From the IMG/VR virus record IMGVR_UViG_3300021093_000182, positions 1-37,610 of that record: a stretch of DNA of 37,610 bases. One strand, 5' to 3'. Shown piece after piece: positions 11,184-36,092 of the stretch. Source of the stretch: a virus. The position numbers and the translations under genes were made by a program. The notes below the pieces were generated by a model, which searched no databases, was not told the DNA's origin, and worked only from the letters and a program-made list of their open reading frames with translations. Position 1 is the stretch's first letter; each line of letters starts with the position of its first letter.

Positions 11184-14100
11184 ATGGCTGAAGAAAATCT
11201 TTTTAATCCTCTAGATGATTTAGGTCCAGAGTTTGGTGGTATTAATAGACCTGGTTCAGATGCTAATAGTTATTTACCTTTTGAAGGTGATAAAATAGAT
11301 ACTCCTAAAATTAATTTTCCACAGGCACCTAATCCTTTTAGTATGCCTGGTGTTAGAGATTTAACAAGACCTAACTTTAACATTAAACAAAATATTGTAA
11401 ATAATCCTGGTATAATTAAATCTGCACCTAAACCTGGAAAGGTAGATGTAAAAGGTTTAATGAATGCACAACAAGATTATTTAAAATCATTAATACAAAG
11501 TAAACAGTCAAATGAAGATTATGCTAGAATATATAGTTATAATGCTGGTCCAAGTGGAGGAGCATTCTATGATAGATATGCAGCATATGGACAAGAAACA
11601 TTTGATAAAGTAGGCTTTCACCCTTTAAGGGATAATGAAGCCCTATTTAATGCAAGAACTACTAAAGCAGATGATTGGAGTAGAATGATGTCACACTCAT
11701 TTTTACCAATGGTGTGGAAAGGTTTTACTGATGGACCTAAGAGTTTATGGAAAATGATTCAAGGTGACTTTACCGGAACAGACCTAGAAGGAGCAGAAGA
11801 ATATGAAAGATTAGCTGCTATAGGATCATCTAGTAAAGGAGGAGCATTTGGATTTGTAAATAATACAGTAATGAACTTTGGTTACACTGCTGGTATTATT
11901 ACTGAAGCTATAGTAGAAGAAGTAGCTGGTTTAGCATTAGCTCCGTTAACAGCAGGTACTTCAGCAGCAGTTACTACTGCAAATAATGCAAGAAAAATAC
12001 CTTCTTTATTTAAAGGTATAAAAGGTTTTGAGGCAGCATATGATGCCAGTAAAGCAGTAGGTAATACACTTAAAGCTTTAAATAATTCTCAATCAGCAAG
12101 AAAGTTTTGGAATGCAGCTAATGCTGCAGGTACTAGTAAAATAGGAAGATTCTTAAATCCTTTAGAAAATACTGTAGATGCAATAACAGGTATAAGAGCT
12201 ACTGATAACTTAACGGGTCTTGCTAAGACATTTAGAACTGCCGGAGGTTTCTATAGAGATGTAAGAAACTTAAATATGGCTTTATCTGAAGCTAGGCTTG
12301 AAGCTGGTATGGTAGAAAACAAAGTTTATAAAGATGGGTATAATGCTCACTATGAAAAATTTGGTACAGCTCCTACTAATGATGTACAAGAAAAATTAAT
12401 GGCTACAGCTAAACAAGCTTCATTAGATACTTTATATTGGAATACAGGATTAATATATGCATCAAATAAAATAACCTTTAATAATATTACAGGTCCAAGA
12501 GGTGGTATAAGAAACTTTGTAAGAGCTAATATAGATGATGTAATGAAAGCCGGTAACGGTAAGTTTGGTACTGTAGGTAAGATTGTTTATGATAATACTA
12601 AAAAACAATTTGCTAGACAGTCTAATGATTTTATGTCATGGGCAAAAGGTTGGGCAAAAGATCCTATATATAAAAGTGTAGGTAAGACTGTAGGTTATTT
12701 TAAATCTAATTTTACCGAAGGTTTACAAGAAAATGCTCAAGAAATAATTGCTGGAGCAAATGAAAAATATTATACAGATGCTTTTAAAAGTTCTGTTTTA
12801 AAAATGAATCTATATTCAAGAGGTGTAACTGGTTATGCAAATAAAACTAAGTTTGACTATTATGAAGATGAATTTGGTCAACAGTTTACTGAACAAGGTG
12901 CTGAAACTTTTGCATCTGGTTTCTTAATGGGTACACTTGCAGCACCTTTAAATAGTGCAGTACCTATGTTATCTATAGGATATAACAGATTATTTAATAA
13001 TGCAGAATACCAAGAATATAAAACAAGAAAAGAAGAAATGCTTAATGGCATTGTAAAAAATTTAAATAGTCTTGGTCCAAAGCAATTTTATGATTCTAGA
13101 ATATTTAATGCTGCTGTTCAGGATATGGCCGCAGATGTTAAAAATACAGGTTCAAAAAGACAAGCTTATGATGCTACAGATGAAGCTTTTATAAGTCAAG
13201 TAACTACTGCTATGGAAACAGGTAGTTTATATCTCTTCAGAGAAAGGATGACTGATATGAAGAAGATGACTCCTGAAGAAATAGAAAAAGAAGTTCCTGG
13301 TATAGAAAAAGGTGAGGGTCAAAAATATTTAAATAGACTTGATGATATAATTAACAGAATAGATACTGTAGAAAAAAGATATAATTACTATAAAGAAAGA
13401 TATCCTAATCCAATTTCTCTAGAGACATTAAATGAAAAAGATCCAGAGTTTAATGCTAAAGTACAACTTTATACAGGTTGGAATGTAGCATTAAGAAATG
13501 CTGTATTCTTTAATGAAGCTTTTGAATCTGCTTTAAAAAGAAAAGCAGGAATTAAAAATAAACTTACAGCTAATAAACCATTTGCATCTATATCAGATAC
13601 AGAAGTTAATAGCTTATTAGACAATTTAGTATTAGGAAAAGAAATAAGTAATATCAGAAATGAAATTAAATCATTAGAAGATTTAAAGAAATCTGGTACA
13701 TTAAATCCTGAGTTAAATAAAGAGTTAGAAAACAAAAAGAAAAAATTAGAAGCTTACACAGAGTTATTTAATGAAACAGAAACATTTAATAATTTCTTTA
13801 ACAGATATGAAAATCTTGAGTTGATTAAAAAATCAATGAAAAAAGAACTTGAAAAAAGAAATATTAAAACTGATGAATTAACTGATGAAGCTGTTATTGC
13901 AGCTATAGATAAAAATTTAGGGGCTTTTGATGATGTAAATAAAGCTGAAAGAATACAAGCATATAAAAGAAGTGTAGACAAATATTTAAAGTCTATTGCT
14001 GATGTTAGTAATGATAATGTATTTGATGAAAAATTAGATGACTTATTTAATGATTTATTAGATCACCAAAAACTAGATTCAGAATCTAAAAAGTTAGTTA

Positions 14101-17100
14101 GGTATAATAACCTACTACATAACCCGGAAGAATTTTTAAAACTTGTAGAAAGAAATACAGAATGGTTAAAGTCACTCTATGATAATAGAGAAAATATTTT
14201 TAGAGATATTGTAACTGAACAAATAGGTATTGTAGAAGCAAACTCTTTACTAAATGCTTTAGCAGATAGAGGTATCTACATGAGTGTAGATGACTTTGCA
14301 GAGTTTATTAAAAATGGAACTAAACCAAAAGAGTTCTTTAATGAACCTGCTAATGAAGTATATAGAGAAGGTACTACTGAATATGATGAAATTTTTGAAG
14401 AGTACTTAACTAAGTTTAATGCACTTAGACCTGAAAAACCAGTAAGCCAAGAAGAAGATGAACTCTTTGGTCAAGACTTAGATCTTGACATGATTTTTGA
14501 AGATGAAGAAACAGCACAAAAAACTAAAGAAGAACTTTATAAATCATATACTCCAGAACAAAAAGCTTCTATTAAAAAGATTGAAGAGTTAATTAAACTT
14601 CAGGAAAATGTAAAAGCAGGAGAAACACTTAAGGTAGATGACCCTACAACAGGATTAAAGGCCGGAGAAAAAGCTTATTTAATAAATGATCTTTTCCATA
14701 GAAGGGTTACTAATGCTATAAAAGATGTAGAAGCAAGTGATTACCAATATACAGATAAAGCAGTTTTAGAAGATATATTTCAAATTGCTTTTGGTGGTAA
14801 TGTTCTTAAAGAAAATACTGGAGCAGAAGACTTTACCTTTAAAGGTAAAAACTATGTTAAAGATTTAGTACCTACAGAAGGTGGTTATAATATTAAAGTA
14901 TCAGAAAAATTAGAAGATGGTACAATAAAACCTTTATCAGAAACTGAGTCTTCAATACTAGGTTTTATTTATTTAGCTAAACAAGCTGATCTTGCTGGAT
15001 TTAGAGATGTGTTATATGAAGAACTAGCAGATGAATTAACTAATATTTTACAACCAACTACAACTCCTGTTTCTAATAAAGCTAATATAGAAAGATTAGA
15101 AGCTTTAAATTTATTAGATAAGGAATCTACAGAGTTTTTTAAAGATGGTATAGATAAAAAAGTAACAGATATAGAAAATGAATACTTAGAAAGATTATTA
15201 AATTTAGAATATTTGTCAAAACCTTTAGTTTTAAAAGATATATCTCAAAAAGAATATAATGATCAAGTTGCTTCTATAAAGAAAAGTTATGAATCTAAAA
15301 TTAATAGTGTTGGTAAACGTAGATATAGAATTAATCTTGAAAGTGCAAGAGATAAGGAATTAGCTGATTTAAAAAGAAAATATGATGCAGAACCAGCTGT
15401 TTCTACCAGTCCTGTTTCTGATAAGAAAGCTGATATAGAAAGAAGAAGACAGGAAGAATTAGATAGAAAACTTAATAATAGAAAAGGCGCATTAGAAGTA
15501 CAACAAGAATTTGAAAATAACTTAAAAGAAAATCAAGAAATACCAGAATATTCTAAAGTTGGGGTTAAATATAATGAAGGGTCAGAAGTAACAGCAACTT
15601 TTCAAGATAATACATCTGAAACATTTAAAGGCGAGCCTTACCCAATAGTTATAAATGTTATCAAGCCAGCAATTATAGAAAATGGAAAATTGATACAAGC
15701 TGCTGTATTACAAATAGGTATGTTTGATTCTAAAGAATCTGCCGATAATTGGGTTTCTGGTATAAAAGATAGAAATGCTAAGCAACTAACGCAGCTTGAG
15801 CAGGAAATCAATGCTAAATATGATGCAGAACTAGATGCTTTAGAAGAAGCTCCAGTAAGTACTGAAGAACAAACTACTAGTGCTCAACCTGTAAACATAA
15901 GCAATGAAGATTTATATAATAAGATATATAAGTTTGTATCAGAAAAAACATATGAAGATGGTAGAGAAGCTGGTAATTATATAGATCAAGCTGCAAAAGA
16001 TTTTTTGGGTGAAGGTAAAATGCCGGAGTTTGATCCTAATAAAATTACTAAAAAAGCTTACTTAGATTTATTTGGACCAGATGGACACCTTACCCAAATA
16101 AAAAGAAGAATTGATAATGGTGAACTTTATATAGTAGCTAAAGGATTAGTAGTATATGATTCTAATATAGAAAAGCTTGATGGTACTACAGATAGGATTG
16201 CCGGAGAAATTGACTTAATAGCAGTAGATAGAAAAGGTAAAATACATATCATAGATATTAAAACAGGAAATGAGGATAAGTGGTTTAAGTTTAATAAAAT
16301 TAAAAAGACTAAAAAAACAGCCACCACAAAAGATGATGGTATATATTCTAAAAGAGAAAACTATACTTTACAACAAGCTACTTATGCTACCTTATTAAAA
16401 AGAATGATTGGTGTTGATGCTAGTATATCTATATTACCCGTTCAAAGAAGTTCTGATCCACAAACTGGAAAAATTTTAACTGCAGGAAAACCTACAGCTC
16501 AATACATATATCAACCTTTAATTTATAGAAGAACACCTGATGGCAAAATATCAAAAAATTCTATTGGTATTAAAGAGTTTGAAGTAGATAATTCACCACA
16601 AGTTTCAGAAATGCTTATTCCTCTTTATATGGCTAGTGTAAGAGATGAGATGAATACTCTTTTCCCAATCACAAGATATAAGGATGCAACAGGTGAGTAT
16701 GTTGAAGAAATGATAGATTTATCTGGTGTATCTAAAACTGTATCACCTAAAGATAAATTAAATACCCTTACTAAAAAATATGAAAATAGTACTAAGAAGA
16801 TAGACTCTCAAATAGAAACTATTCAAGAAAGACTTAGTAAATTTAATATTACTCAGAACTTTGATAGTATAGACCTATCAGAAAACTCTGACTTTGTACA
16901 ACAACAACTAGAAAAAGATGAAGCTTTTGCTAATGTATTTAAAGTACATAAAGATAGATTTGTTGGAAAAGTTGCTTATGCACCAACTCCCGGACAATTA
17001 TTAGCAATTGACGCATTATCTACAGGAGTATTAACTCCGGAAGAAATAGATTTTGTACAAAATAGTAATCCTAATAGAGAAGAAGTATCTGAAATAATAC

Positions 17101-17882
17101 ATGAAGCAGTTAAAAGAATACAGTATTTAAAAGTTAATACAACCAGTGATGTTGCTGCTAGAGCATTTTCAGATTATCAAAGAGATGTCTTTAATTTAAT
17201 TAGTTTAAATAATACTAATGCTCAAGATAAAGCTATCTTAGAAACATTTGTTAATGCATCTCAAGCTACAACACCTCAAGAAATACAAGATGCTGTAAAT
17301 AGTTTAGATACATTGCAGAGTAGTCTAGAACAGCAATTAAGTAACAAGTTTTTAAAAGATAATGTTATACAAAAAATACAAGGTCAACTTAAAGATGTTA
17401 AAGATTTTAATGCTAACTTTAGATTAGATTCAGGCTTTGTTGATGTAGTAGATATTTTTGCTGATCCAATAGATTCTACAATAGATGGAGAAAGTGTTGT
17501 AAAAGTAAATGATATTTATTATCTTAATAAGGATGGTAACCCTAAAATGGTGGTAACAGAGATATTAGAAAATGGAAACATTGTGTTAAAATTAGCTACT
17601 AAACAAAATACACCTAGAAAAAATGCAAAAGAAATGGTAGTCTCTCCAAATGAATTGTCAAATAATTTTGTTAAAGAGTCAGAGTTAAATAATGTCTCTG
17701 ATAAACAAACAACATATACAACATCTCCTGCTGAAAAAGAAATTTTAGAAGAAACTTTTGATGCTCAAGATGTTTTCCTTGCATCTGATGAAGCTAAACA
17801 AGAAGCTTACAATATTGGTATGGAAACAAATGTGGAGGATATAAAGAATGATTTAATTAATAAATTTAAAAACTGTCAGTAA
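11184..17882 (+). CDS. Giant ejected protein with PD-(D/E)XK nuclease domain (2232 aa)
   Basis: Mostly helical and charged. Two weakly hydrophobic Ala/Gly segments, ~233-262 (YTAGIITEAIVEEVAGLALA) and ~576-600 (FASGFLMGTLAAPLNSAV), could touch membrane. Coiled-coil-like stretches lie around 810-900 and 1380-1480. At ~1600-1770 is a RecB/Cas4-like PD-(D/E)XK nuclease: AGEIDLIAVD with D1677, then IIDIKTG with D1691 and K1693, then LQQATYATLL with Q1730/Q1731 and Y1734. This core would bind Mg2+ and cut DNA; delivered with the phage it could attack host or rival DNA, or process the incoming genome. The only cysteine is C2231, one residue before the end. Its stop overlaps the next start by one base (TAATG), so translation is coupled. 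Nuclease call good; the rest is unassigned. Confidence 0.85.
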   Translation: MAEENLFNPLDDLGPEFGGINRPGSDANSYLPFEGDKIDTPKINFPQAPNPFSMPGVRDLTRPNFNIKQNIVNNPGIIKSAPKPGKVDVKGLMNAQQDYLKSLIQSKQSNEDYARIYSYNAGPSGGAFYDRYAAYGQETFDKVGFHPLRDNEALFNARTTKADDWSRMMSHSFLPMVWKGFTDGPKSLWKMIQGDFTGTDLEGAEEYERLAAIGSSSKGGAFGFVNNTVMNFGYTAGIITEAIVEEVAGLALAPLTAGTSAAVTTANNARKIPSLFKGIKGFEAAYDASKAVGNTLKALNNSQSARKFWNAANAAGTSKIGRFLNPLENTVDAITGIRATDNLTGLAKTFRTAGGFYRDVRNLNMALSEARLEAGMVENKVYKDGYNAHYEKFGTAPTNDVQEKLMATAKQASLDTLYWNTGLIYASNKITFNNITGPRGGIRNFVRANIDDVMKAGNGKFGTVGKIVYDNTKKQFARQSNDFMSWAKGWAKDPIYKSVGKTVGYFKSNFTEGLQENAQEIIAGANEKYYTDAFKSSVLKMNLYSRGVTGYANKTKFDYYEDEFGQQFTEQGAETFASGFLMGTLAAPLNSAVPMLSIGYNRLFNNAEYQEYKTRKEEMLNGIVKNLNSLGPKQFYDSRIFNAAVQDMAADVKNTGSKRQAYDATDEAFISQVTTAMETGSLYLFRERMTDMKKMTPEEIEKEVPGIEKGEGQKYLNRLDDIINRIDTVEKRYNYYKERYPNPISLETLNEKDPEFNAKVQLYTGWNVALRNAVFFNEAFESALKRKAGIKNKLTANKPFASISDTEVNSLLDNLVLGKEISNIRNEIKSLEDLKKSGTLNPELNKELENKKKKLEAYTELFNETETFNNFFNRYENLELIKKSMKKELEKRNIKTDELTDEAVIAAIDKNLGAFDDVNKAERIQAYKRSVDKYLKSIADVSNDNVFDEKLDDLFNDLLDHQKLDSESKKLVRYNNLLHNPEEFLKLVERNTEWLKSLYDNRENIFRDIVTEQIGIVEANSLLNALADRGIYMSVDDFAEFIKNGTKPKEFFNEPANEVYREGTTEYDEIFEEYLTKFNALRPEKPVSQEEDELFGQDLDLDMIFEDEETAQKTKEELYKSYTPEQKASIKKIEELIKLQENVKAGETLKVDDPTTGLKAGEKAYLINDLFHRRVTNAIKDVEASDYQYTDKAVLEDIFQIAFGGNVLKENTGAEDFTFKGKNYVKDLVPTEGGYNIKVSEKLEDGTIKPLSETESSILGFIYLAKQADLAGFRDVLYEELADELTNILQPTTTPVSNKANIERLEALNLLDKESTEFFKDGIDKKVTDIENEYLERLLNLEYLSKPLVLKDISQKEYNDQVASIKKSYESKINSVGKRRYRINLESARDKELADLKRKYDAEPAVSTSPVSDKKADIERRRQEELDRKLNNRKGALEVQQEFENNLKENQEIPEYSKVGVKYNEGSEVTATFQDNTSETFKGEPYPIVINVIKPAIIENGKLIQAAVLQIGMFDSKESADNWVSGIKDRNAKQLTQLEQEINAKYDAELDALEEAPVSTEEQTTSAQPVNISNEDLYNKIYKFVSEKTYEDGREAGNYIDQAAKDFLGEGKMPEFDPNKITKKAYLDLFGPDGHLTQIKRRIDNGELYIVAKGLVVYDSNIEKLDGTTDRIAGEIDLIAVDRKGKIHIIDIKTGNEDKWFKFNKIKKTKKTATTKDDGIYSKRENYTLQQATYATLLKRMIGVDASISILPVQRSSDPQTGKILTAGKPTAQYIYQPLIYRRTPDGKISKNSIGIKEFEVDNSPQVSEMLIPLYMASVRDEMNTLFPITRYKDATGEYVEEMIDLSGVSKTVSPKDKLNTLTKKYENSTKKIDSQIETIQERLSKFNITQNFDSIDLSENSDFVQQQLEKDEAFANVFKVHKDRFVGKVAYAPTPGQLLAIDALSTGVLTPEEIDFVQNSNPNREEVSEIIHEAVKRIQYLKVNTTSDVAARAFSDYQRDVFNLISLNNTNAQDKAILETFVNASQATTPQEIQDAVNSLDTLQSSLEQQLSNKFLKDNVIQKIQGQLKDVKDFNANFRLDSGFVDVVDIFADPIDSTIDGESVVKVNDIYYLNKDGNPKMVVTEILENGNIVLKLATKQNTPRKNAKEMVVSPNELSNNFVKESELNNVSDKQTTYTTSPAEKEILEETFDAQDVFLASDEAKQEAYNIGMETNVEDIKNDLINKFKNCQ

Positions 17883-17893
17883 TGATCCAATGT
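17874..17893 (+). other. First junction cysteine pair (2232-aa / 4674-aa proteins)
   Basis: The stop-start overlap TAATG is flanked by the only Cys codon of the upstream gene (17874-17876, residue 2231 of 2232) and the first Cys codon of the downstream gene (17891-17893, residue 4). In peptide terms the ends read ...KNCQ-stop and MIQC.... Their meaning is discussed under findings. Confidence 0.7.
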
Positions 17894-26800: not shown

Positions 26801-29800
26801 TTAGAAGATCAAAATGTATTTGTTATAACCCCTAATGCAAGTAAAGGAAGATTACTATCAATAAATGATTTAGCAAATGAGTTAAACTCTAAAAAAATAA
26901 CTGAGGTAGATAAGATATTTCTTTATAACAAATCAGAAGATAAGTATAATATAATACTATATAAATCTGCTAGTGAGGTAGGAGATTTATTAGATAATTC
27001 AACAATTCCTTTTACAACAGAAGTTTTATCAAGAACTTATTTACCCGCAGGTGATATTAGGTTAGAAACTTTATATGATGGCATATCAACAAATGATAGT
27101 TCAAGTTTAAAATCACTGGCATTATTCATGAACTTTATTGAGTTAGAAAAACAATTTGAAGGAATGGATAACTTACAACAGTCTTTTGCTCCAGATACTT
27201 CAACATTAACTACAACTCAACAAGTAAGACAAAGAAAAAGTAATTATAAAATGCTTGCTAAGTCTAGTAAAATAGACAATGGAACCTTTGAAAGATTAAC
27301 TAAAGACTCTGTAGTATCTTCATTTAATGTAGATGATTTAATATTAGATTTAATATTACCATTATTTCCTTTAAGATTAAATGTTGACATCAGTACTTTT
27401 ATATCAGACAAAATAGTTCAGGAAAGAAGACTTATAAAATCAAAATTTGGAACAGGTATAAAGGGACAAGAAAACTTTACTAAAGCTTATAATAATGGTG
27501 TAATTAACTTTATATATCAAAACTATATTTCTAATTTTCAAAATGAAGATGGTAAATTAGTTAATGTGGGCCCTGAAGTCGGAGGCTTTCCTACTTTAAT
27601 AGATGATAATGCAGACTTTGATGCTATTGTAGAAAATGGTGTAATGATCATAAATACAAAAGCTATTGAAGATGACTTTAATAATAAAGTATTTTTAGAA
27701 GGAAACACTACTGCTAGAAATTATGCAGAACAAGGTCTAGATGTATTTAAACCTAATCAAAATCCTTTCTTAAATTTAAATAGTTACTATAGATATGTTT
27801 TAGAAAGAGAGGCGTTAAGAGTTAAAAATCCTATTGAATCCTTAGAAAATGATTTAGCATATAAAGAGTTTTTAAGTAAACTAGGTAATATTCCTGAAGA
27901 TGCGTATGAAGCATGGTTATCTGAAAAAGCTTTAAGAGATAGTTATAATAAAGCTTATATAATGGGCTCTACTAAATATAGTTATTCAGATACTATACTT
28001 GATCTTATAAGAGGTTTATCAGATAAAGTAAAATCAGAGTATCCTATATTATCACAGATTGCACCTGCTGAAACAAGAAGAGCTAATGTAAAACTTCTAC
28101 AATTAAATAATAAAAAGCTTGTAAAAGGACAGTTAGCAGAAATATATTACTCTAACTTGCGTAACTTAGGAGATGTTACTATTAAAAAAGTTGATGATCC
28201 AGAATTAAATAAAAGAATATCAGACTTATTTAATGAGTTCTCATTAATGATGTTTTATCAGCATGGGGTTGGACCTACTAAATTTGGATTTACAAAAGCT
28301 TTAGATCCTGAACAGTATCAAAAATTAATGCGTTATGCAGTAGATGATTTCTTTAAAAATTATTTTATATCTCCAGAGGATACAAATAAAATTTTAAATA
28401 GAATATATGATACTGTTGTAAGTGAAGAAATGTTCAAGAACTATTCTGTTCCTTTAAAAGGTTTTCATGCTAAAGAAGTAAAAGATGAATTTATAGAGTC
28501 ATTTGATTTATTAACTGGTTTATCAGAGGGTCCTGTTATTATGTCTGCAGAAGACATTGCTTCTTATAACACATACTTAAGTAAGAGTAATAACATTAAA
28601 CCTAAAGTATTCTTTACTCCAAAAACTTTATTTACAGAATTTTATAATAATGTAACGGGTAAAAGACAAACTATGCCTGAAAGTGCACAGTGGAATCTAA
28701 ACTCATATGGTTATTATGATATGATAGATAATGCCACAAAAGAAGTTTACATACAAAATGTAGACTTAGCAACTGGTAAAAAGATGTTATTAGCTGATGA
28801 AGTATATCCTAAATCTTCTGTTAAACCAGGGAGAACTCCTGCAAGTAAAGTAGTTGGTATAAATATTAGTACTAAATCATCTGATAAGCTGGGTAGAGAG
28901 TTAACAAATCCTAACTGGGGTGCTAAAAATATTATGGATATAGAAGCTGAATATAAAGCAAATGCTTCTAAAATAAAAGCTCCTAATCTTAATGCAGAAG
29001 AAGCATTAAGATATGATATGAATCTTATGTATAAACTTCAGATGAAAAAGTTTAAGGCTCATCCAGAATTGGTTAAAGAAATAACAGATAGAGGTGGTGT
29101 GCCTTTCTTAGAAGCTTCTGAACATACTGTAGGAGTAAAAGGTAGCAGATGGGAAGGTAAAGGAACTGATAGCAATTTTATTAAAGTTCTTATCAGATCT
29201 TATCAAGATTCTTTAAAAGCTAACCAAGCTCCTGTAAGTGCTACAAACAATCCAGCAGAATATACTAATCATTCTGGAGGAGCTAACGGCTCTGATACTG
29301 AGTGGGATGTTATTGGTAAAGAGTTTGGAATGGTAAATAATAACCATTACTATACTGGGGTAAAAAGTCCAAAAAATGCACCATTAGGAAACGTAGATAT
29401 TACAGATGAACCAATAGCTGTAGAAGGAGCAAGTAAAGTTGCTCAGGCTGCTAAACAAATGTGGGGTTACAAGTATAACACAATGAAAGACCAGAGACTG
29501 ATTAGAAATTGGGCTCAGGTTGCTAATTCAGATGCAGTATTTGCTATTGGTACATTAGGTAAAGAAGGTGATATCTGGAAAGGAGATGAGAAATCTGCTG
29601 AACCAAGAAAACTTCTCAAGTTTGCAGTGCAAGGTGGAACAGGTTATGCTGTAGAAATGGCTATACAAGCTGGTAAACCTGTATATGTATTTGACCAAGT
29701 AAGAAATCAATGGTATAAAAATATTAATGGTGAATGGTCTAAATCTGAAGTACCAACTCTTACTAAAAACTTTGCAGGCATAGGCACTAGAGAAATTAAT

Positions 29801-31906
29801 GAAGCTGGTAAACAAGCTATTAGAGATGTATATGCTAATACATTTAAAGCTACTACTCAACCTACTGTACCAGTAGGAGAAGTTAAAGAAGGAGTAGCAG
29901 AACTATTTAAATCTAATCCTGAATTAGCTAATATAGGAACTGCACAACAATACTCTAGATATCTTGACACTATATTCCCTGATAATGCAATAGTTTACAG
30001 AGGTAGTGAAAAAGGAAGAACTGATTTTCAGACAAGAGGGTTTTTTACTGATAAATTAAGTTATGCAAAAGAATATGCTTTTGACAAAGGGTTTGTATCT
30101 AAAAGTGAAAAGGAAATAGTAAACACATTTCTAATTAATACGGCTAATGTGAAGAATGTGGGAGAAATGAATACTGAATCTGTAAAAAATGAACCACAAG
30201 ATTTGGTATTAAAAGGTACAGATAAAGGCAGAACAAAAGAATCAGGTAATGTATATGCTACAACATCAAAAAATTTACATGAATTAGGTAGTAAACAAGA
30301 TATAGAAGGGTTTAAAGAGTTTGTACAAGGTGAATCTTTTATTAAACCAGGAGTATCAGAACTATTTGAATCTAAACCAGTATTAAGTACTATAGGAACA
30401 CCTGAACAGTATAGTAATTGGATTAACTATCTTACTACTCAAGGTAAACTAGCAGGTACACAAGCTACTGATATACTTTATCATGGTACATATGAAGTAT
30501 TTGAAGAGTTTGATGAAGATAAAAAAGGAACAAACACTGGTATAATTACATATCAATCAGAAGATAAATCTGAGCAATTCCTTAGTGATTCAGCAAATAC
30601 TATTTTCTTTTCAGATAGAAAAACAAATGCTATTAGTTATACACTGTTAGGTAGAGATAGATATTTATCTGAAATTTTAGATGCTTTACAAAATGTAAGA
30701 AGTGGTGTAAAAGACTATGTAGAAGATGCTGTAGAAGTTTTAAAAGGAGTTCCTTATTTTAATAATCTTATTGATAAAGCAAAAAAAGAAGGTAAAACTA
30801 CTAAAGAAATAATTGATTTATTAGGAAAAGAAGAAACCAGATTAGCTAGAAAATATAAAGAGGGCTCTAGTTCACTTTTTACAAACACATTAGCTAGTAC
30901 AGAGAATTCATTAAAAACTCTTAATAAGTTTTTGTCTAATATTGATATATTTAAAAAAAATAATGACATTGATTTTACTAATTCAACAAGTAACTTTAGG
31001 ATTTTTAAAAAAGGTAACAGAACAGAATTTGCTAGATTTGATAAAGGAAAAACTGTATTAACGGCAGAAAGGTTTTATGCAGATGAAGTTACTAATGATA
31101 AGATTAAAGACTTTATTAATGCTGCAATTGCTGAAGATAATAATACTTATGCTCAAGTAAAAAAGGATATGAAAAGTGTAGGTTTTGAAGAAAAGGCAAT
31201 GCCTGTTCTTTTAAATTTACAAAATCCATCTGTTCATGATTATGAAGGATCAGCATTTCCTGATGTATACAAAAATACAAAAACAAGAACAGCTGCTTTT
31301 GCTGCAAAACAAGTTGCTGATGCACTTAAAAATGGAAATGATGGTGTTATTTATGAAAACATTGTAGATCCTTTATTATCTAATTCATATGGAGTATTTG
31401 ATGTAAAAAATATATATATACTTGGAGGAACAGAAGATATACAAGGATTTAAAAACTTTGTATCCGGTCAACCTACTGTAGAACCAGTAACATCAACTGG
31501 TGAACCTACAATACAAGAAGAAGATATGAAAGTATTCCAAGCAGCATTAAAAGATAATGATGGAGTATTACCAAATAAATTTATTGTAAGTTTACCTACT
31601 GGTACAAGAACTTGGATTAAAAATTCTAGAAACTTATATGATCTTGTAGATGAAAATACTATACTATTAAGAAATGTAAATATGGAATCTGGTCTAGTTG
31701 AAGAAGCAACTACTACTCCTGTAGATGAAAGTAAAAGAAAAGCTCTAATAGATCAGTTTACAAATTTACGTAAGACTATGCCTATAGATGAAATTTTAGC
31801 TGAAAAAGGTATAGATGCTAATGATGTATTATTAAATTTACAAAAAGCTAAAACACAAGAAGAGTTGTTAAAAATAGAAACTGAAATACTTAAAAAATTA
31901 TGTTAG
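17882..31906 (+). CDS. Giant virion RNA polymerase fused to metallopeptidase, SLOG and ADP-ribosyltransferase-like domains (4674 aa)
   Basis: DNA-dependent RNA polymerase of the crAss/phi14:2 gp66 type, related to two-barrel RNAi polymerases and expected to be packaged and to transcribe early genes in the cell. Seen: second-barrel loop D2604-F-D-G-D2608 (after IVAKAGS) and first-barrel FGSGSKAAN with K2270. Other domains, in order: ART-like ~600-724 (QRGSGLYYALDK, GYESLIGW, ELVLYKP); zincin peptidase H952-E-A-W-H956 with E1006 as candidate third ligand; a cationic amphipathic helix ~1026-1049; polymerase core roughly 1080-3700; SLOG/DprA-like Rossmann domain ~3794-3990 (HSGGANGSD, GGTGYAVEMAI, FAGIGTREI); ART-like ~4035-4150 (IVYRGS, GFFTD); ART-like ~4198-4515 (LYHGT, FFS, DGVI). 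The last two are tandem modules with shared flanks. It is about twice the length of phi14:2 gp66. Its only cysteines are C4 and the final residue C4674. It ends in TAG, overlapping the next start by 7 bases. Confidence 0.92.
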   Translation: MIQCAINDPEIIKSLYSYVVANLKEAEKKGSFDPNEFMQNFYNELKANGSPEAAAKYIASLPKLISSVYTSYFFESNINIDVNKLKELNISFRSEDGINNVLKEFDKPIDADKINASINTDDISENEIEIKETVINEPVIPSRRFRTFSPLTGTGQSYVKIKPSAKNSKELVVERIDPNKIHIVNTMASISNSMNNQSITDGVIYQGKKLFFRAYNLNDFATGNRQQLFDKTTEDEIIKARSIGDKTPKGVLKINERVVLILSDEAGNQLYFDDAGNISNENEGKIVYQFLRPVRVVENKLVTTNIYSDENAILTPKEIARSTYKEEFGDKQAYLDSIIKEQEEDLATLKKIQDAALRRKPSDAAYLLPITGMTNGITTLDSATTISLENLITFPNQSKKIISTIETQSKESGVVKKGGGTIEINSERFPIDRMRITNDIAKQISEIIIEPGLTVQQKYDFIKQFIPIGMTKSVRNFDITYNFEKNSLFLTIYEKPNLINQIAQYNLSNTNLNNVNTAKASEDLFNALTEGYNGYATFISYDNDALRNNSYRIYKGGKTFEKDSYYNLILAQNPNISLIENNPGFFNYSLQFDVPTGPTVSNIVTVKAFRTSGTFSSRVGYAQRGSGLYYALDKPFQEVLSNDPVEEVTVSYDPSKTLDATTEEGQTRFMDIKRSAIEGKSFKSMQESNDAVTEAMIANGYESLIGWIEQDVEEAGRELVLYKPIAEKRQEPVDDEFIPVNTTTAADIEATRLYNIITSPEYIDEMARQGILASESWHLNKLLKNEIQKNSQYTKEFAREVLDSLILITNFSQKQINIINNIIDSKVDSAETKSGTDIIQNIVKPEAPQPHNNPTNSNKPDDLIDGLFRRAKNLDEKISEKKIKQSIDWWNSPGMKAMRDAIDLNPIMNIVNSDIYATFIVSAGTLANPDRLGKINYNVQKGSVFQNLTIYHEAWHAFSQLFLTPQQKTDLYNEMRSLKGTFTLENGETYSYSTAKIRQLEEKLAEDFRNYMKTEKPETKTPVKNTIFRQILNFLKALLGKFLKKFNKKDVTIDALNSPMAKELFNNLRVGNLNSYKPLISNAELFSLDRGVRNVENPREDVLSKQDSTQLVSAIDSIIAEIIDARYKKYKNVPGAKAITIATLVETQRREILLNEVREVLEKKLKTEKDKLNKLKPNFDFNGLSTLQNIKDYASAKLTNKKGDHKYVFLASQILDFSKLDPSLKKGERVKGESYAGTIKIVSDFYKHKEIKNENGKPVDIIVVSNLEDAEVQYNNYVKGEAKAYTGFELNQKALQPNLNLSEDEALILDNIRILQLTLSNWGDNKSGVIKYYLENTDYEVAKKKYETDYTETVDADGNTIDQTKVGDGVTSQLEINNDNLKGKVSLQQLMSKETAYILKSLFKVDSQGNTPVDRFGFKQRADFSKIFNIVAKTIGGIRDRQKAYDALVREAEKFPEIKQLIESKYPEPNTRNTYEFDISRQFLQDFGKAKVKYMQLFATLSDNGEFDLQSVQASLSISSIQGRWISEFKSSPKTPYINKSANNVSSLNLNAIVSEFREKSGNLKKSKSLEFAQAIGIGLDTNKNIISELDKNSDYYGLPYIFDAVIEFNELQLLEQAGQTLTPLQKEYLDKFRLNPLETLKTTVPKDVFTGIIKEDFNENTQLRRLAELQGKYGYDSATAGVIRSNGNTGYEDINYSTYSARLDALNNVEKITDLWQEKQYSYMSYLDPTINTYTRHLKILNSIFDRYEKNGDRKKGRYIEAIAVDGTNINDDLGNTTTELDDKSKFLQEIHSMLLAGWAELPRISEKKFSQGFRVIGGIENGLVLEKGADKNLYVDINMFFEGNKGENYAIVEYLSGYLEGEFDRIKKFKGSQRNELLKITGYNRVVDEVNGKKIYAGEVFSAFDTVLSPETKTKLYNLIEENINVNLRTSLKTDRELARLVSNDFKNYFNELVSDYSKTYYQDVPYLSESLLRKAGVKLSESPTSEELKAIRNNKTITDNIIKAYAYNDWIHKFETSIIMFGDFAQWDHAKEDWSKRIPGATSDGTGFLYDQGTQDFINNTFNAPYEIKNESGQKVEKLRTYAAIETAKTNGKINYDNYVFSDILNTAVIQDIERKSIYLDDMKAAWKEEFSKTYDNETAEYFTKLNAEAFEKMTEGDGMAYMTIDAYRALHKTGRGWSIAQENLYQKIINGEKVTQAEAAQYFPIYKLHYFGALKNDLIATTAMHKFSVMPLIPGVNAKEGSQLDKLHKKMLRENVQYVTFGSGSKAANLTSTGKLDNIFASDQQKAISDDVEFTLNPIYLANLKEVTVINDEFKGELPIATQTRAIILDNLFENGKIKNENNKQIIDSYLNTIKDYTKLLQSDLLNEIGYVYNEETKRYEGNLKNFVEFIREELAAKDIPNHLVKLINTTEDGQLTMDLSIHPESQDIEQLLMSVIQKRLIKQKTNGEPLVQAPTSFTNGWWDTQFSNVTDPEERKKLLGSNTLPFYLRGEIINKETGERAATKMMKVAISLQGSYNNLLNQVYKGQKIGTIERLNELIKDEEWLNTGNNRKAITIGGPRIPNDATNTIEGAEVWHFVDPAFGNTVIVPTEIVAKAGSDFDGDKLFFAMANIDKDGNYISKGISDFENKLKKAQELEKQFEEKKASNKKLTKEDFEKLPEISSEQLIEQQKRYLQNKYIETHTSLLALPENYAYLVTPNLTHLVDKYIPYLEKTRSGYDRYKNPGNIEPNKSAPDKDGKRKTVISPTRLLEATYNLYKHAANLSLEPSLGIQAKITKNHTIFKTIGAKMPNTYKDEFFNLDTGELIIKPLELPLVMRFLHNVVRNEKGELVISLSGEKTQKGSRITDLNSHNLNGILDRAKNPFPFDLQMTPEGINVISYLIQAGVNEEEVFMFVNQPLIKKYMEDQRLMNSAYYTIINGQKASKVKSTALYDIAIPILDTLNDGQKTDLLNKVNREKLRAAINTVRKLEDQNVFVITPNASKGRLLSINDLANELNSKKITEVDKIFLYNKSEDKYNIILYKSASEVGDLLDNSTIPFTTEVLSRTYLPAGDIRLETLYDGISTNDSSSLKSLALFMNFIELEKQFEGMDNLQQSFAPDTSTLTTTQQVRQRKSNYKMLAKSSKIDNGTFERLTKDSVVSSFNVDDLILDLILPLFPLRLNVDISTFISDKIVQERRLIKSKFGTGIKGQENFTKAYNNGVINFIYQNYISNFQNEDGKLVNVGPEVGGFPTLIDDNADFDAIVENGVMIINTKAIEDDFNNKVFLEGNTTARNYAEQGLDVFKPNQNPFLNLNSYYRYVLEREALRVKNPIESLENDLAYKEFLSKLGNIPEDAYEAWLSEKALRDSYNKAYIMGSTKYSYSDTILDLIRGLSDKVKSEYPILSQIAPAETRRANVKLLQLNNKKLVKGQLAEIYYSNLRNLGDVTIKKVDDPELNKRISDLFNEFSLMMFYQHGVGPTKFGFTKALDPEQYQKLMRYAVDDFFKNYFISPEDTNKILNRIYDTVVSEEMFKNYSVPLKGFHAKEVKDEFIESFDLLTGLSEGPVIMSAEDIASYNTYLSKSNNIKPKVFFTPKTLFTEFYNNVTGKRQTMPESAQWNLNSYGYYDMIDNATKEVYIQNVDLATGKKMLLADEVYPKSSVKPGRTPASKVVGINISTKSSDKLGRELTNPNWGAKNIMDIEAEYKANASKIKAPNLNAEEALRYDMNLMYKLQMKKFKAHPELVKEITDRGGVPFLEASEHTVGVKGSRWEGKGTDSNFIKVLIRSYQDSLKANQAPVSATNNPAEYTNHSGGANGSDTEWDVIGKEFGMVNNNHYYTGVKSPKNAPLGNVDITDEPIAVEGASKVAQAAKQMWGYKYNTMKDQRLIRNWAQVANSDAVFAIGTLGKEGDIWKGDEKSAEPRKLLKFAVQGGTGYAVEMAIQAGKPVYVFDQVRNQWYKNINGEWSKSEVPTLTKNFAGIGTREINEAGKQAIRDVYANTFKATTQPTVPVGEVKEGVAELFKSNPELANIGTAQQYSRYLDTIFPDNAIVYRGSEKGRTDFQTRGFFTDKLSYAKEYAFDKGFVSKSEKEIVNTFLINTANVKNVGEMNTESVKNEPQDLVLKGTDKGRTKESGNVYATTSKNLHELGSKQDIEGFKEFVQGESFIKPGVSELFESKPVLSTIGTPEQYSNWINYLTTQGKLAGTQATDILYHGTYEVFEEFDEDKKGTNTGIITYQSEDKSEQFLSDSANTIFFSDRKTNAISYTLLGRDRYLSEILDALQNVRSGVKDYVEDAVEVLKGVPYFNNLIDKAKKEGKTTKEIIDLLGKEETRLARKYKEGSSSLFTNTLASTENSLKTLNKFLSNIDIFKKNNDIDFTNSTSNFRIFKKGNRTEFARFDKGKTVLTAERFYADEVTNDKIKDFINAAIAEDNNTYAQVKKDMKSVGFEEKAMPVLLNLQNPSVHDYEGSAFPDVYKNTKTRTAAFAAKQVADALKNGNDGVIYENIVDPLLSNSYGVFDVKNIYILGGTEDIQGFKNFVSGQPTVEPVTSTGEPTIQEEDMKVFQAALKDNDGVLPNKFIVSLPTGTRTWIKNSRNLYDLVDENTILLRNVNMESGLVEEATTTPVDESKRKALIDQFTNLRKTMPIDEILAEKGIDANDVLLNLQKAKTQEELLKIETEILKKLC
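29891..31471 (+). repeat. Tandem ADP-ribosyltransferase-like modules with repeated flanks inside the polymerase gene
   Basis: At protein level, two consecutive modules share an entry peptide (GVAELFKSNPELANIGT at ~4004; GVSELFESKPVLSTIGT at ~4157, both followed by QYS) and an exit peptide (LGSKQDIEGFKEFVQG at ~4135; LGGTEDIQGFKNFVSG at ~4514). Each encloses an ART-like core, IVYRGS...GFFTD and LYHGT...FFS respectively. The cores differ in sequence and length (about 100 versus 300 residues), so this is a swappable cassette pattern rather than a fresh duplication. Confidence 0.7.
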
Positions 31907-34900
31907 CCTGCCCTAATAAAGATAGTGAAGATTGGAAAAGACTTTTAGCAGAAGCTAATGGTAATGAATCAGCTGCATTTGAAGCTTGGTTGTTAGAACA
32001 AGATCTTCTAGATGATGGTACTCCAGATACACTTACATTTTCAGATGAAACAGAAGACTTTGCTGAAGAAGCTGAAGCTGCAAAAACTGATGAAGAAGAA
32101 TCAGACCCTAGAGATTTTGGTAATTTAGTTGATAGTGTAATATTATATCTTGAAAAACAATATGCTACTCTTCAAAATAAAGTCATTACTAATAAAGAAT
32201 ATAAAAAGAAAAAACTCAGAGATCTTATTGAAGAAGTAAAGGTTGCAGAAGGTGTTAAATCTATTTACTTATTTGTAGATGATGCTTATGAAAAATCCAG
32301 AAAGGCATCTTTAGAAATGGCTTATCTTTTAAAAAATAAAGAAACTCTAGATCCTAAAGAAGTAATAGGAAAATTATCTGCTATAAATGATTTTATTAAT
32401 GGGTATTCTATACTAGATGAAATAAGTAAAGCAGATCTAGATAATTACTTTACAGCAGATAGTATAACTAATAGAGTTCCTGGACAACCTTTGACACCTC
32501 AACAAAAAATTATTGAGATGAAAGGTATACATGAAACTATTAAACAAAAAGTATTAACAGAAGGTATTCCCTTAATTGCAGACTTTTTATTAGAGTATAA
32601 AGGTCCAGATATTACTAACAGGCTAGAATCAGATATGACTGTACTAGATCAAAGAATATCTGATATAGAAAACAGTAACTTAAGTGATGAAAAAAAAGCT
32701 GAAAGAATAGCTCAATTAGAAGAAAGAAAAGAAAAGTTTAAGTCTTTTAATTTAGATAGAGAAGGTTTAATAAAAATGCTTAAAGTAGCAAATAAAGATG
32801 AAGATGTATTTGATTTCTTAGTAGGGCCTTTAATTAGTTCTCATGATGCTTCTCTAGGATTATTTGCTAAAGCTATTAAAGGTGGACTAGAAGAAGCCCG
32901 TCTTAAGGATATAGTAATGGAACGTACTGTAGCAGAAACTTTTGAAGATTATTTAAGAACACAAAGCAATAGAGATAACCCTGCTAAATTTAATGAAGGT
33001 ATTTATGAAACTATAGAAATACCTATTAAAAATAAAGATGGTGAAACTGAATACATAAAGACATATGCTTTTGTACAAAAATATGATGTAACTAAATTTA
33101 ATAAAGCTAGAAATCAAATGCTTGAAGCAATAGGTGAAGAACCTGTTTTAAGTGAGAAACCTACATTTGAAGAAAAACAAGCATTAAAAGCTTGGAGATC
33201 TCAAAGAGCTGCTTGGTATAGAAAGAACACTCAAGCTAAACCTATATCAGAAATAAATAAAATAATTGAAGAAAAACAACTTGAATTATCTAAAAGAATT
33301 ATTACTGATGATGAATATTCAGATTGGTTAAAAAGTGTAAAGCATGAAAGAAATGGTGTAGTCACTTATATGAGAGAGTTATCTGAACCTTCTAATGATT
33401 ATTTAAATGCTAACTGGACAGCCTTATATAATTTAGATGGTACACCTAAAAATGCAAAAGGTGAGTACCATAAGAAAATGTTAGATATATATTTAGAGGC
33501 GCAAGAAAAATTACCGGAAGTACAGAGAAGAGGTTACATCCTACCTTCAGTAGTAAAGACTGATGGTGAAAGATTACAGCAAGAAGGTATTGTAAAAACT
33601 GTAAAAACAAAAGCAAGAGAAGCTGTAAAGATGCAAGCTTATGATACTGAATATGGTTTAGCTGGTTTAGGTATTACAGAAGCAAAATTTATCCCGGTGT
33701 ATTATACACAGATAATGCCTACTGAAGATATGAGTTTAAATATAGCAAGATCTGTAATGTTATTTAACTCAATGGCTAATAGATATGAAGCATTAAATAA
33801 AATAAACTCTGAAATTTCTTTATTTCAAACTGTTATAGGTGATAGACAAGTTTTAAAAACTAATTCTCTTGGTAAACCTGTGTTAGATGCATTTGCAAAA
33901 AAATTAGGTTATGAGGAATATATAAAAAAGAATGGAGAAAGTTTTTCTCAAAAACATGTGGATGCTTTTATAGATATGGTTGTATATGGAGAAATGCAAA
34001 AATCAGAACAATTATTTGGTTTACAAATAGATAAAATTGTAAATAATTTAATGGGTTATTCTGCTATTACTTCTATTGCAGCAGATTTATTAAAGGGTGT
34101 GGCAAATAATATGCAGGCTAATATTCAAGTAATGATAGAAGCAAATGCCGGAGAATTCTTTAATAAGAAAAATCTTATGAAAGGAAAAGCTTACTATACT
34201 AAATCAGTTCCTGGATTTATTTCAGACTTTAGTAAATCTGCTCCAACTAATTTAGCTACCAGGTTATTTGATTATTATGATGCTATACAAGGTAATTTTA
34301 AAGACCAATATGGTAGGAACATTACAGGTAGTATGGCCAACAAATTATTTAGTACAAATACTTTATTCTTTAATCAGTTCTTTGGTGAACATGAAGTACA
34401 GGGTAGTACTATGTTTGCATTAATGGATGCTACTAAAGTATTAGATAATGAAAATGGAGAAATAATAACTCTATTACAAGCTCATGAAAAGTATGGTGTT
34501 GAACTTGATGGTAAAATAAAAATATTACAAGTAGATGCTAACCAAGAACCAATCAAAGATGATACTGGAGAATACATAGCTTTTAATTATGATGAAAAAC
34601 AAAGACTAAACTTTCAGTCTAGATTACATGCATTAAATAAAAGAATGCATGGTGTCTATAATGAATTTGATAAAGGTACAATTCAAAGAGGAGCTTTAGG
34701 AAGATTACTTCTAATGTATAAAAAACACTTAGTTCCGGGCTATAAAAAAAGATGGAAAAAGCTAGGTATGGATCAAGAATTAGGTGCACCTACTGAAGGC
34801 TATTATATAACATTTTATAAAACTTTTGTTAGAGATTTAAGAGACTATAAGTTTAATATAATGAAAAACTGGGCTTCTTATTCTCCATTTGAAAAAGCAC

Positions 34901-35352
34901 AAATAAGAAGAGTTATTGCAGAAGCTACAATAATTTTAACAACTATAGCTCTTATCATGCTAATTAGATCTATGATGGGTACAGGTGATGATGATGATAA
35001 ATTAACTGAATCTCAAAAAGCAGCTAGAGATAATTACATATATAATTTTGTTTTGTATGAGGCTACTAGAATGAGAAGTGAAACAAGTTCATACATTAAT
35101 ATTGTAGATGCATATAGGGTTGTAAAATCACCTTCAGCAATGACAGGTACATTAAACAGAGCAATTAAATTTACAGATCAGTTTATTTTTACTTGGAATC
35201 CTGAAAAATTAAGTTATCAAAAAGATACAGGAGTTTGGAACAAAGGAGACAATAAATCTTGGGCTTATTTTCTAAAACTAATGGGTTTTTCTGGATACAA
35301 TTTTACACCAGGAGAAGCAGTTAAATCATTTGAAAGTACATTCTTTAATTAA
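31900..35352 (+). CDS. Giant-protein partner with one C-terminal membrane segment, polyvalent-protein type (1150 aa)
   Basis: The ATG overlaps the polymerase gene's last 7 bases (ATGTTAG), so translation is coupled. The N-terminus MLACPNKDSEDWKRLLAE resembles the CPN...W motif that begins or joins segments in phage polyvalent proteins; C4 is its only cysteine. Residues ~40-75 are acidic, ~75-300 helical with coiled-coil character. A conserved-looking block at ~700-960 (ADLLKGVANNMQANIQ; RMHGVYNEFDKGTIQRGALG; YKKHLVPGYKKRWKK) recalls the LPD38-type large polyvalent-protein-associated domain. One hydrophobic helix at ~1008-1026 (EATIILTTIALIMLIRSMM) is followed by an Asp-rich loop. It could form part of a channel or anchor the delivered complex at the cell membrane. 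No catalytic motif seen. Function inferred. Confidence 0.8.
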   Translation: MLACPNKDSEDWKRLLAEANGNESAAFEAWLLEQDLLDDGTPDTLTFSDETEDFAEEAEAAKTDEEESDPRDFGNLVDSVILYLEKQYATLQNKVITNKEYKKKKLRDLIEEVKVAEGVKSIYLFVDDAYEKSRKASLEMAYLLKNKETLDPKEVIGKLSAINDFINGYSILDEISKADLDNYFTADSITNRVPGQPLTPQQKIIEMKGIHETIKQKVLTEGIPLIADFLLEYKGPDITNRLESDMTVLDQRISDIENSNLSDEKKAERIAQLEERKEKFKSFNLDREGLIKMLKVANKDEDVFDFLVGPLISSHDASLGLFAKAIKGGLEEARLKDIVMERTVAETFEDYLRTQSNRDNPAKFNEGIYETIEIPIKNKDGETEYIKTYAFVQKYDVTKFNKARNQMLEAIGEEPVLSEKPTFEEKQALKAWRSQRAAWYRKNTQAKPISEINKIIEEKQLELSKRIITDDEYSDWLKSVKHERNGVVTYMRELSEPSNDYLNANWTALYNLDGTPKNAKGEYHKKMLDIYLEAQEKLPEVQRRGYILPSVVKTDGERLQQEGIVKTVKTKAREAVKMQAYDTEYGLAGLGITEAKFIPVYYTQIMPTEDMSLNIARSVMLFNSMANRYEALNKINSEISLFQTVIGDRQVLKTNSLGKPVLDAFAKKLGYEEYIKKNGESFSQKHVDAFIDMVVYGEMQKSEQLFGLQIDKIVNNLMGYSAITSIAADLLKGVANNMQANIQVMIEANAGEFFNKKNLMKGKAYYTKSVPGFISDFSKSAPTNLATRLFDYYDAIQGNFKDQYGRNITGSMANKLFSTNTLFFNQFFGEHEVQGSTMFALMDATKVLDNENGEIITLLQAHEKYGVELDGKIKILQVDANQEPIKDDTGEYIAFNYDEKQRLNFQSRLHALNKRMHGVYNEFDKGTIQRGALGRLLLMYKKHLVPGYKKRWKKLGMDQELGAPTEGYYITFYKTFVRDLRDYKFNIMKNWASYSPFEKAQIRRVIAEATIILTTIALIMLIRSMMGTGDDDDKLTESQKAARDNYIYNFVLYEATRMRSETSSYINIVDAYRVVKSPSAMTGTLNRAIKFTDQFIFTWNPEKLSYQKDTGVWNKGDNKSWAYFLKLMGFSGYNFTPGEAVKSFESTFFN
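31901..31911 (+). other. Second junction cysteine pair (4674-aa / 1150-aa proteins)
   Basis: TGT at 31901-31903 is the last codon of the polymerase gene (C4674) and is followed by TAG. TGC at 31909-31911 is codon 4 of the overlapping downstream gene. The protein ends read ...KKLC-stop and MLAC..., the same arrangement as at the 17882 junction although the DNA and overlap differ. Confidence 0.7.
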
Positions 35353-35530: not shown

Positions 35531-35704
35531 TTATTCATCTTCTTCACAACAGTCACATTTCTCTGACTCTTGTTCTCCATACTGATTATAGAACCAATCT
35601 GCAGCATCTGCTTTAGATTGTTTTTCATAACAACCGCAATACATACTATTAGCACCTGCTAAGTATGCTTCAATCATTGCTTTCTTGAATGCTACTGGAT
35701 GCAT
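35531..35704 (-). CDS. Small Cys-rich protein (57 aa)
   Basis: Not recognised. I use the ATG at 35704 (MHPVAFKKAMIEAYLAG); a TTG three codons earlier is less likely. It overlaps the 3' end of the upstream gene by 35 bases. Five cysteines in 57 residues (YCGCYEK, KCDCCEEDE) could bind a metal. The middle, SKADAADWFYNQYGE, looks like a short helical domain seen in small phage proteins with no known role. It is followed at once by the terminator, so it is the last gene of its transcript. Confidence 0.65.
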   Translation of the reverse strand: MHPVAFKKAMIEAYLAGANSMYCGCYEKQSKADAADWFYNQYGEQESEKCDCCEEDE

Positions 35705-36092
35705 CTGTGTCAACTTTAATAAATTTACTTAGTTCAGGTCTAAAATATCCTGGTCCCTTCAAGATTTTCCCATCCTCTCTTAATACAGGTTTACCATCTT
35801 TATCTAATTTACTCATATTACTTTCTTGTATTTCATTAAATACATCTTCTATAATATGTTGCATACCATGTTTAAGAATAGTTCCGCATAAAATATATAA
35901 CTGGTCACCTAATGCATCAGCAACATCTACTAATGCTTTTTTATGACAAGCTTCTAAGTACTCATCATTTTCTTCTTTCATTAATGTATGTCTCAGATCA
36001 AATTCAGAATGAGATAATAATCTTGGCCATCTACCATTTTCTTGACCAAATGCTTTGTGGAATTTTTCCACTGCTTCAAGTTGTTTTTTCAT
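35670..36092 (-). CDS. MazG-like nucleoside triphosphate pyrophosphohydrolase (140 aa)
   Basis: All-alpha NTP pyrophosphohydrolase fold (MazG / phosphoribosyl-ATP pyrophosphatase superfamily), which would cleave (d)NTPs to (d)NMP and pyrophosphate in the cytoplasm using Mg2+. Seen: E40-E-x-x-E44 in LMKEENDEYLEA, then VDVADALGDQLYIL with D56, D59 and D63, then NMSKLDKDGKPVLREDGKIL followed by KGPGYFRPEL, a C-terminal pattern typical of the phage branch. Length is normal for that branch. The ATG at 36092 sits just below a terminator hairpin that lies between it and the upstream gene, so it depends on read-through or on its own promoter. It ends in TGA inside the next gene. Likely role: cleaning or shaping nucleotide pools, or lowering host (p)ppGpp signalling. 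Confidence 0.85.
   Translation of the reverse strand: MKKQLEAVEKFHKAFGQENGRWPRLLSHSEFDLRHTLMKEENDEYLEACHKKALVDVADALGDQLYILCGTILKHGMQHIIEDVFNEIQESNMSKLDKDGKPVLREDGKILKGPGYFRPELSKFIKVDTDASSSIQESND

Follow-up and report, generated by a model that had tools for sequence, protein, structure and literature searches.

What are four cysteines doing at the ends of three giant phage proteins that otherwise lack this residue altogether? The question is raised by the window analysed here, the whole 37,610-nucleotide stretch of IMG/VR virus record IMGVR_UViG_3300021093_000182, in which three consecutive genes encode proteins of 2232, 4674 and 1150 amino acids (aa). By sequence comparison these are the virion RNA polymerase set of a crAss-like phage (gp47, gp50 and gp49 in the naming of Bacteroides phage crAss001). 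In the human gut, crAss-like phages rank among the most abundant viruses; the locus bears on the passage of several large proteins through their narrow tail. One cysteine lies on each side of both gene junctions, an arrangement that is kept in relatives and lost where genes are fused. We propose, with a probability of roughly two in three, that head-to-tail disulfides couple gp47, gp50 and gp49 into one chain inside the virion, which would be released in the reducing cytoplasm of the host.

Four cysteines at two gene junctions

The genes and motifs on which the argument turns are as follows, all on the plus strand of the window:

11184..17882, 2232-aa gp47-like RNA-polymerase-associated protein, first in the chain; single cysteine C2231, none at the free N-terminus
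17874..17876, TGT codon of C2231 (C-terminal side of junction 1), outside the gene overlap
17882..31906, 4674-aa gp50-like catalytic virion RNA polymerase, middle of the chain; its cysteines are C4 and C4674 only
17891..17893, TGT codon of C4 of the 4674-aa protein (N-terminal side of junction 1)
20687..21037, zincin-like domain inside the 4674-aa protein, with HEAWH at residue 952
25691..25705, DFDGD catalytic motif, residues 2604-2608 of the 4674-aa protein
31900..35352, 1150-aa gp49-like RNA-polymerase-associated protein, last in the chain; single cysteine C4, none at the free C-terminus
31900..31906, 7-base gene overlap ATGTTAG
31901..31903, TGT codon of C4674 (C-terminal side of junction 2), which takes bases from the overlapping start ATG of the gene that follows
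31909..31911, TGC codon of C4 of the 1150-aa protein (N-terminal side of junction 2)

The first-pass annotation had counted the four cysteines by eye. Exact translation and a computer count agreed with it: C2231, C4, C4674 and C4 are the only cysteines in the 8,056 residues of the three proteins, flanking each junction with one on either side, and the free outer ends have none. Other genes in related loci contain 0.50% cysteine (proteins of at least 400 aa) or 0.85% (at least 150 aa), rates at which 40 to 68 cysteines would be expected instead of four, and the chance of four random cysteines landing one per four-residue inner end is about 1.5e-12. Taken alone, C4674 could be a by-product, because its codon shares bases with the start of the following gene; in a related locus (L025), however, coordinates and alignment show the terminal cysteine at the homologous junction without any gene overlap.

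The identity of the set was established protein by protein. A tblastn search with the 1150-aa protein matched 75 phage records, the 60 listed being mostly Bacteroides and uncultured crAss-like phages, with matches annotated as a putative RNA-polymerase subunit in crAss001 and as an RNA polymerase associated protein in Cellulophaga phage phi14:2. In pairwise comparison this protein, encoded directly downstream of gp50, matches crAss001 gp49 (E 9e-58) and phi14:2 g065 (E 3e-33). The 4674-aa protein matches phi14:2 g066 (E 3e-14) and crAss001 gp50 (E 3e-6) by blastp and keeps the catalytic GSDFDxD as GSDFDGD. The 2232-aa protein has a weak, local match to crAss001 gp47 (E 7e-8) and weak homology to a 1552-aa protein of phage Lbo-JY46 (E 3e-6). 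PHROGs and Pfam gave only marginal matches to the three proteins, which we did not use. The model of the gp49-like protein has a mean predicted local distance difference test score (pLDDT) of 75.5, with residues 1-4 below 50, and its fold may be new, because comparison with the PDB returned zero matches at E <= 0.001. In the crAss001 structure paper, gp47, gp49 and gp50 are described as virion cargo, with six copies each as an example (PMC10172136). The virion presence of the set is known for these relatives, by published mass spectrometry in crAss001 and from record notes for g065-g067 in phi14:2, whereas the window's set is known from its genes.

Facing and free ends in related phages

We next consider whether relatives share this arrangement. 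The sample comprises 134 unique loci from two viral-contig scans with catalytic-core alignments and from named records, with two added (136; individual loci carry L numbers); the scans covered at most 599 pattern matches and 80 loci, and some loci are near-copies. As the first-pass annotation had anticipated, facing-end cysteines are conserved and co-occur. All 20 named phages have cysteines at the facing ends and none at the outer ends, two annotated starts having been moved to an internal in-frame methionine. These phages represent the Steigviridae, Intestiviridae, Crevaviridae and Suoliviridae and include two whose records give no placement in Crassvirales, Flavobacterium phage Fpv1 and Leptolyngbya phage Lbo-JY46. 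In phi14:2, for example, g067 has only C1797, its last residue, g066 only C3 and C2179 of 2180, and g065 only C3. Across the sample, both cysteines are present at 116 of 121 junctions between gp50 and the next gene, neither at three and the first only at two. The C-terminus of gp50 carries a cysteine in 118/125 cases, and five of the seven without are gp50-gp49 fusions, whose C-terminus is a free end. The C-terminus of gp49 carries one in 1/81, the sole case being L092, where another break comes next. At the second junction the cysteine lies 0-8 residues from the end of the upstream protein (mostly 0-4) and at positions 2-9 of the downstream protein (mostly 3-5), with both TGT and TGC in use. 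The interiors of gp50 hold 168 cysteines in 460,096 residues. Five named phages (L012, L015, L175, L178 and L181) and L005, which lacked the motif used in the junction scan, were read individually; the end count was made without L182 (minus strand), and its 27 'gp47 N-termini' include upstream open reading frames (ORFs) other than gp47.

Even where gp47 lies on the opposite strand it still has a cysteine in its last four residues (crAss001, cr128, DAC15, cr116 and bajarodcaudo virus 1), and L321, with gp47 on the other strand, likewise retains its C-terminal cysteine. The gp50 (or fused gp50-gp49) of L321 has at least five internal cysteines and keeps its inner-end one.

A prediction was set beforehand for loci fetched later: joint cysteines at 90% of junctions or more, and a cysteine at 5% of free ends or fewer. 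These 56 loci, all new to the analysis, were found with gp50-based polymerase-core queries, with new first sequences and the same thresholds. Both junction cysteines were present in 49/52, and none of 43 gp49 C-termini had one; split N-termini carried a cysteine in 7/8 and fused N-termini in 0/22. The three junction misses comprise two with inserted genes and one, L308, that seems broken; the sole split N-terminus without a cysteine is that of L276.

A further comparison comes from gene fusions and from breaks that have moved. The zincin-like domain, used as an independent landmark to class gp50 N-termini, lies inside the separate gp47 of crAss001 and Dulem virus 41, so that the break follows it, whereas in the window the break precedes it and the domain lies inside the 4674-aa protein; the junction-1 break has therefore moved. 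Among complete gp50 N-termini, the cysteine is present in 29/29 where the break precedes the zincin domain and in 26/29 where the domain was not found in gp50 (taken as a break after it), with two more N-termini unclassified. Where gp50 is fused to gp47 it is present in 0/37, the loss on fusion that had been predicted. Two of the three N-termini without a cysteine, in L014 and L187, are start-codon choices, and the third, L155, is a frameshifted fused gene. On a tree of the catalytic core, parsimony needs 10 changes between split and fused states; among 7 well-supported independent contrasts the cysteine goes with splitting in 6, and the remaining 1 shows no difference (p 0.031). The tree analysis was run without L151 and L180, with L014, L187 and L102 (split, with a long N-terminal part) re-coded by hand, and L155 is its only mismatching row.

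The second break moves too, since between 372 and 2,063 residues of the downstream protein precede the gp49 landmark (90 loci), and the cysteines shift together with the breaks relative to the zincin and gp49 anchors. In gp50-gp49 fusions such as those of Lbo-JY46 (2748 aa) and L319 (4520 aa) the sole cysteine is at the N-terminus. Conversely, L005-L008 (47-50% identical) encode the equivalent of the 4674-aa protein in two pieces, and a further pair of cysteines marks this additional break. Linker ORFs between gp50 and gp49 (13 in 12 loci, 169-1167 aa) follow suit: all 13 have cysteines in both their first and their last 10 residues, and 11 hold exactly two. These counts come from an unfiltered list, not pre-chosen by cysteines at both ends; four recoded L180 fragments are uncounted, and L108, L123 and L116, where no gp49 anchor was found, stand outside it. 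The model of one 304-aa linker was poor (mean pLDDT 57.8, 7 sequences).

Several apparent exceptions have simple explanations. For L014 (crAss002) and L187 (cr11), homologous or annotated starts give C3. We read L155/L074 as a frameshift in a fused gene, because the first 90 codons of the second frame are free of methionine and the alignment of this frame to the fused L067 begins at its third residue. With its recoded stops read in the annotated frame, L180 (cr4_1) obeys the rule. In L108, L123, L312 and L229 other genes intervene, followed by a protein with C3 (C8 in L229), and the facing cysteines skip over them. The inserted genes themselves, some with several cysteines, sit inside the chain; L108 and L312 share a homologous 162-aa gene (48%, E 9e-50), and a 628-aa gene of L108 shares its N-terminus with a 1161-aa gene of L116. 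The L276 miss is possibly a frameshift or a new split.

The rule also helps annotation, by pointing to true start codons and true chain members. The annotated start of crAss002 gp33 (L014:9003-9100, MN917146) seems wrong; an internal MSCTPSN, 32 codons downstream, is likely the true one, because the homologous cr107 start and the cysteine rule both point to it. For bajarodcaudo XHH63389 (L015:17805-17870), the likely start is MAKSCAIIP, 18 codons after the annotated one, which resembles the gp49 starts of crAss001 and cr128.

As to the rest of the window, the three genes preceding the set (1632, 735 and 1091 aa) encode 0, 4 and 0 cysteines, none near an end. All those of the 735-aa protein (5634-7841) lie in a CYC...CLC cluster at residues 444-465. 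A MazG-like nucleotide pyrophosphohydrolase is encoded at 35670-36092 on the minus strand (PHROG 671, E 2e-39).

How the facing ends may be joined

What, then, might these residues do? Our reading treats gp47-gp50-gp49 as one virtual polyprotein that would have been cut into genes at lineage-specific places. At almost all cuts observed, each new end carries one cysteine in a short tail, usually among residues 3-5 or the last 1-5, and the facing pair would most likely form a disulfide in place of the missing peptide bond. Separate proteins would thus be coupled head to tail inside the virion, while their bodies, poor in cysteine or free of it, would prevent wrong or internal disulfides, so that each could unfold and pass portal and tail. 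Passing N-terminus first, with gp47 leading, gp50 next and gp49 last, the chain may deliver the three proteins 1:1:1; in the cytoplasm of the host it would be uncoupled by reduction, and the polymerase would refold there. The ends are read as couplers because cysteines are present where the chain is cut and absent where a peptide bond takes over. For crAss001, the structure paper proposes that cargo is ejected with partial unfolding, and for gp45 ejection from N- to C-terminus with partial unfolding is deduced (PMC10172136). The suggestion in the first-pass annotation that the facing ends meet through their cysteines is thus partly supported: conservation, co-occurrence and loss on fusion held with few exceptions, and the bond itself is our interpretation.

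A number of observations weigh against this reading. Many of the hosts live strictly without oxygen, conditions under which disulfides are less easily formed. Among comparison genes of the same loci, 30/257 have a cysteine in the first 10 residues and 16/257 in the last 10. If tails and heads recognised their own partners, charge might be expected to covary, and partner-specific covariation was absent in 37 genomes (r -0.31 and -0.37 for true pairs, -0.37 and -0.21 for mismatched ones); in the same genomes hydrophobicity was not clearly more strongly correlated between true partners than between mismatched ones. Some loci depart from the rule at the ends. L308, whose genes look broken, lacks the C-terminal cysteine; L276 lacks one N-terminal cysteine, its frames being contiguous on the fused L272 (2875 then 2901); the 583-aa protein of L108 (C3) has no C-terminal cysteine though another C3 protein comes further on; L116 and L151 look interrupted; and the upstream proteins of L056 and L139 have their single cysteine 18 and 31 residues from the end. 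Others are not cysteine-poor inside: gp50 of L098-L101 has 8-21 internal cysteines, the fused gp50-gp49 of L114 has nine, and gp44 of p-crAssphage has eight cysteines in all, the inner-end cysteines being kept in each case; the Intestiviridae count among the lineages with several internal cysteines.

Moreover, sequence cannot tell which cysteines pair, and homotypic bonds remain compatible with the data. The terminal cysteines might join like ends, forming dimers, or bind another virion protein rather than the neighbouring chain, and a published precedent is the homotypic 47-47 disulfide of crAss001 gp57. We consider this unlikely. Both facing cysteines occur at breaks and both are missing from fusions, and the outer ends have none or next to none; nor does the gene before gp47 offer another partner, because it is free of cysteine in 50/52 loci.

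A metal ion, zinc or similar, shared by the facing pair could instead clamp the ends without a covalent bond. Such a site likewise needs one cysteine per partner and would vanish on fusion, and it would work in anaerobic, reducing surroundings, the home of many hosts. The residue composition of the ends speaks against it. Across 115 junctions, every tail and every head contains a single cysteine, no other residue is enriched to a comparable degree, and the share with a histidine, expected to be 9%, is 4% for tails and 9% for heads. Two cysteines per junction are too few for the usual zinc site with its three or four ligands, and with no histidine enrichment a zinc site proper was rejected. We favour the disulfide over metal because there are two lone cysteines, no other enriched ligand, spacing that varies by several residues and a low-confidence modelled gp49 N-terminus; a metal clamp of any kind is quite unlikely. 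A C-x-N motif just inside the N-terminus, found in 46/115 heads at the second junction and 3/46 at the first, is not general.

Selection might also only purge cysteine from the protein bodies, leaving terminal cysteines with some minor job such as portal docking or capping. Cysteine depletion alone is indeed known, in the virion RNA polymerases (vRNAPs) of N4 type. Yet a general end function would not predict outer ends that are nearly free of cysteine (0/37, 1/81, 0/22 and 0/43), and we regard this explanation as very doubtful.

That the cysteines are by-products of DNA signals at the junctions, such as start-codon overlap or translational coupling, is highly improbable. The window's C4674 is read from the next ATG, but such an overlap accounts for only 8/117 C-terminal cysteine codons. 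TGT or TGC in the other two frames occurs in only 10-29/115 tails and heads, against 115/115 in the coding frame, a figure fixed by row selection: nine loci were omitted (L116, L180, L108, L123, L187, L014, L184, L186 and L114), exceptions among them, and the informative parts of this control are the other residues and frames. The cysteines are also kept with gp47 on the opposite strand and with intervening genes; as a general explanation, the DNA-signal account is refuted by these observations. From the frame and residue controls we conclude that selection acts on the cysteine itself, at the protein level. Consistent with this, an alignment of 25 gp49 homologues, whose identity to the window's protein is 17-90% and which were not chosen by cysteine, has six invariant columns, C4 among them; an 18-sequence alignment (A5) is a subset of this 25-sequence one (A3) and not independent.

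The split of an ancestral C-x3/4-C motif by a gene break, the second reading offered by the first-pass annotation, would explain one cysteine per side at one given break but is hardly credible and was rejected, with several non-homologous break sites each followed by its own pair, and with 36 internal cysteines in all among 37 fused proteins, which lack the motif at the break and hold only one pair within 60 residues.

Comparison with known systems

The closest systems are phi14:2 g065-g067 and crAss001 gp47, gp49 and gp50, which are homologous to the window's set, share its gene order and the GSDFDxD motif, and carry the same terminal cysteines. In the reconstruction of crAss001 the polymerase proteins were reportedly left unresolved. 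The word 'cysteine' is absent from the crAss-phage main texts that we searched, including the crAss001 structure paper (PMC10172136). Judged by titles and the beginnings of abstracts, a cysteine coupler is undescribed in the crAss papers that our searches returned; the phi14:2 polymerase paper (Drobysheva 2021) and preprints lay outside the search and may note it. As far as searched, a cysteine coupler at gene breaks is not known, whereas the proteins and the cysteine-free N4-type polymerases were already known.

If the bond is real, multi-subunit complexes could be delivered in a manner not seen before, with fixed order and ratio and with redox release. We lean slightly towards the broader view that the early transcription machinery of Crassvirales and related phages reaches the host as a covalent train, held end to end by single disulfides, threaded through the tail in one piece and uncoupled by the reducing cytoplasm. 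Were this so, any gene break would have to acquire a coupler, and this would amount to a general rule of design for the injection of such complexes.

Three known systems help to place the idea. High-molecular-weight glutenin subunits of wheat have cysteines near both ends of a cysteine-poor body and form head-to-tail disulfides; they differ in being unrelated proteins of a storage polymer, without ejection or reductive release. Covalent cross-links within virions are known from the same phage order, as inter-subunit disulfides in the tail and portal vertex of crAss001, according to the structure paper (PMC10172136). Those bonds, however, staple folded parts and not the ends of presumably injected proteins. 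Finally, gp50 of phage N4 (Schitoviridae) is a giant polymerase ejected with the DNA and has 0 cysteines in 3,500 residues, and for N4-like phages three papers propose that the absence of cysteine eases entry or passage through tail or periplasm (PMC3715699, PMC2784036, PMC3915230). In the N4 locus (L188), gp51 (644 aa), gp52 (150 aa) and the major head protein (401 aa) are also free of cysteine, and gp53, gp54 and the portal have 4, 3 and 2. The N4 vRNAP, described in one of these papers as one polypeptide with T7-like RNA polymerase motifs, has no junctions to couple because it is a single chain, whereas the window's set is made of three polypeptides with cysteines at their facing ends.

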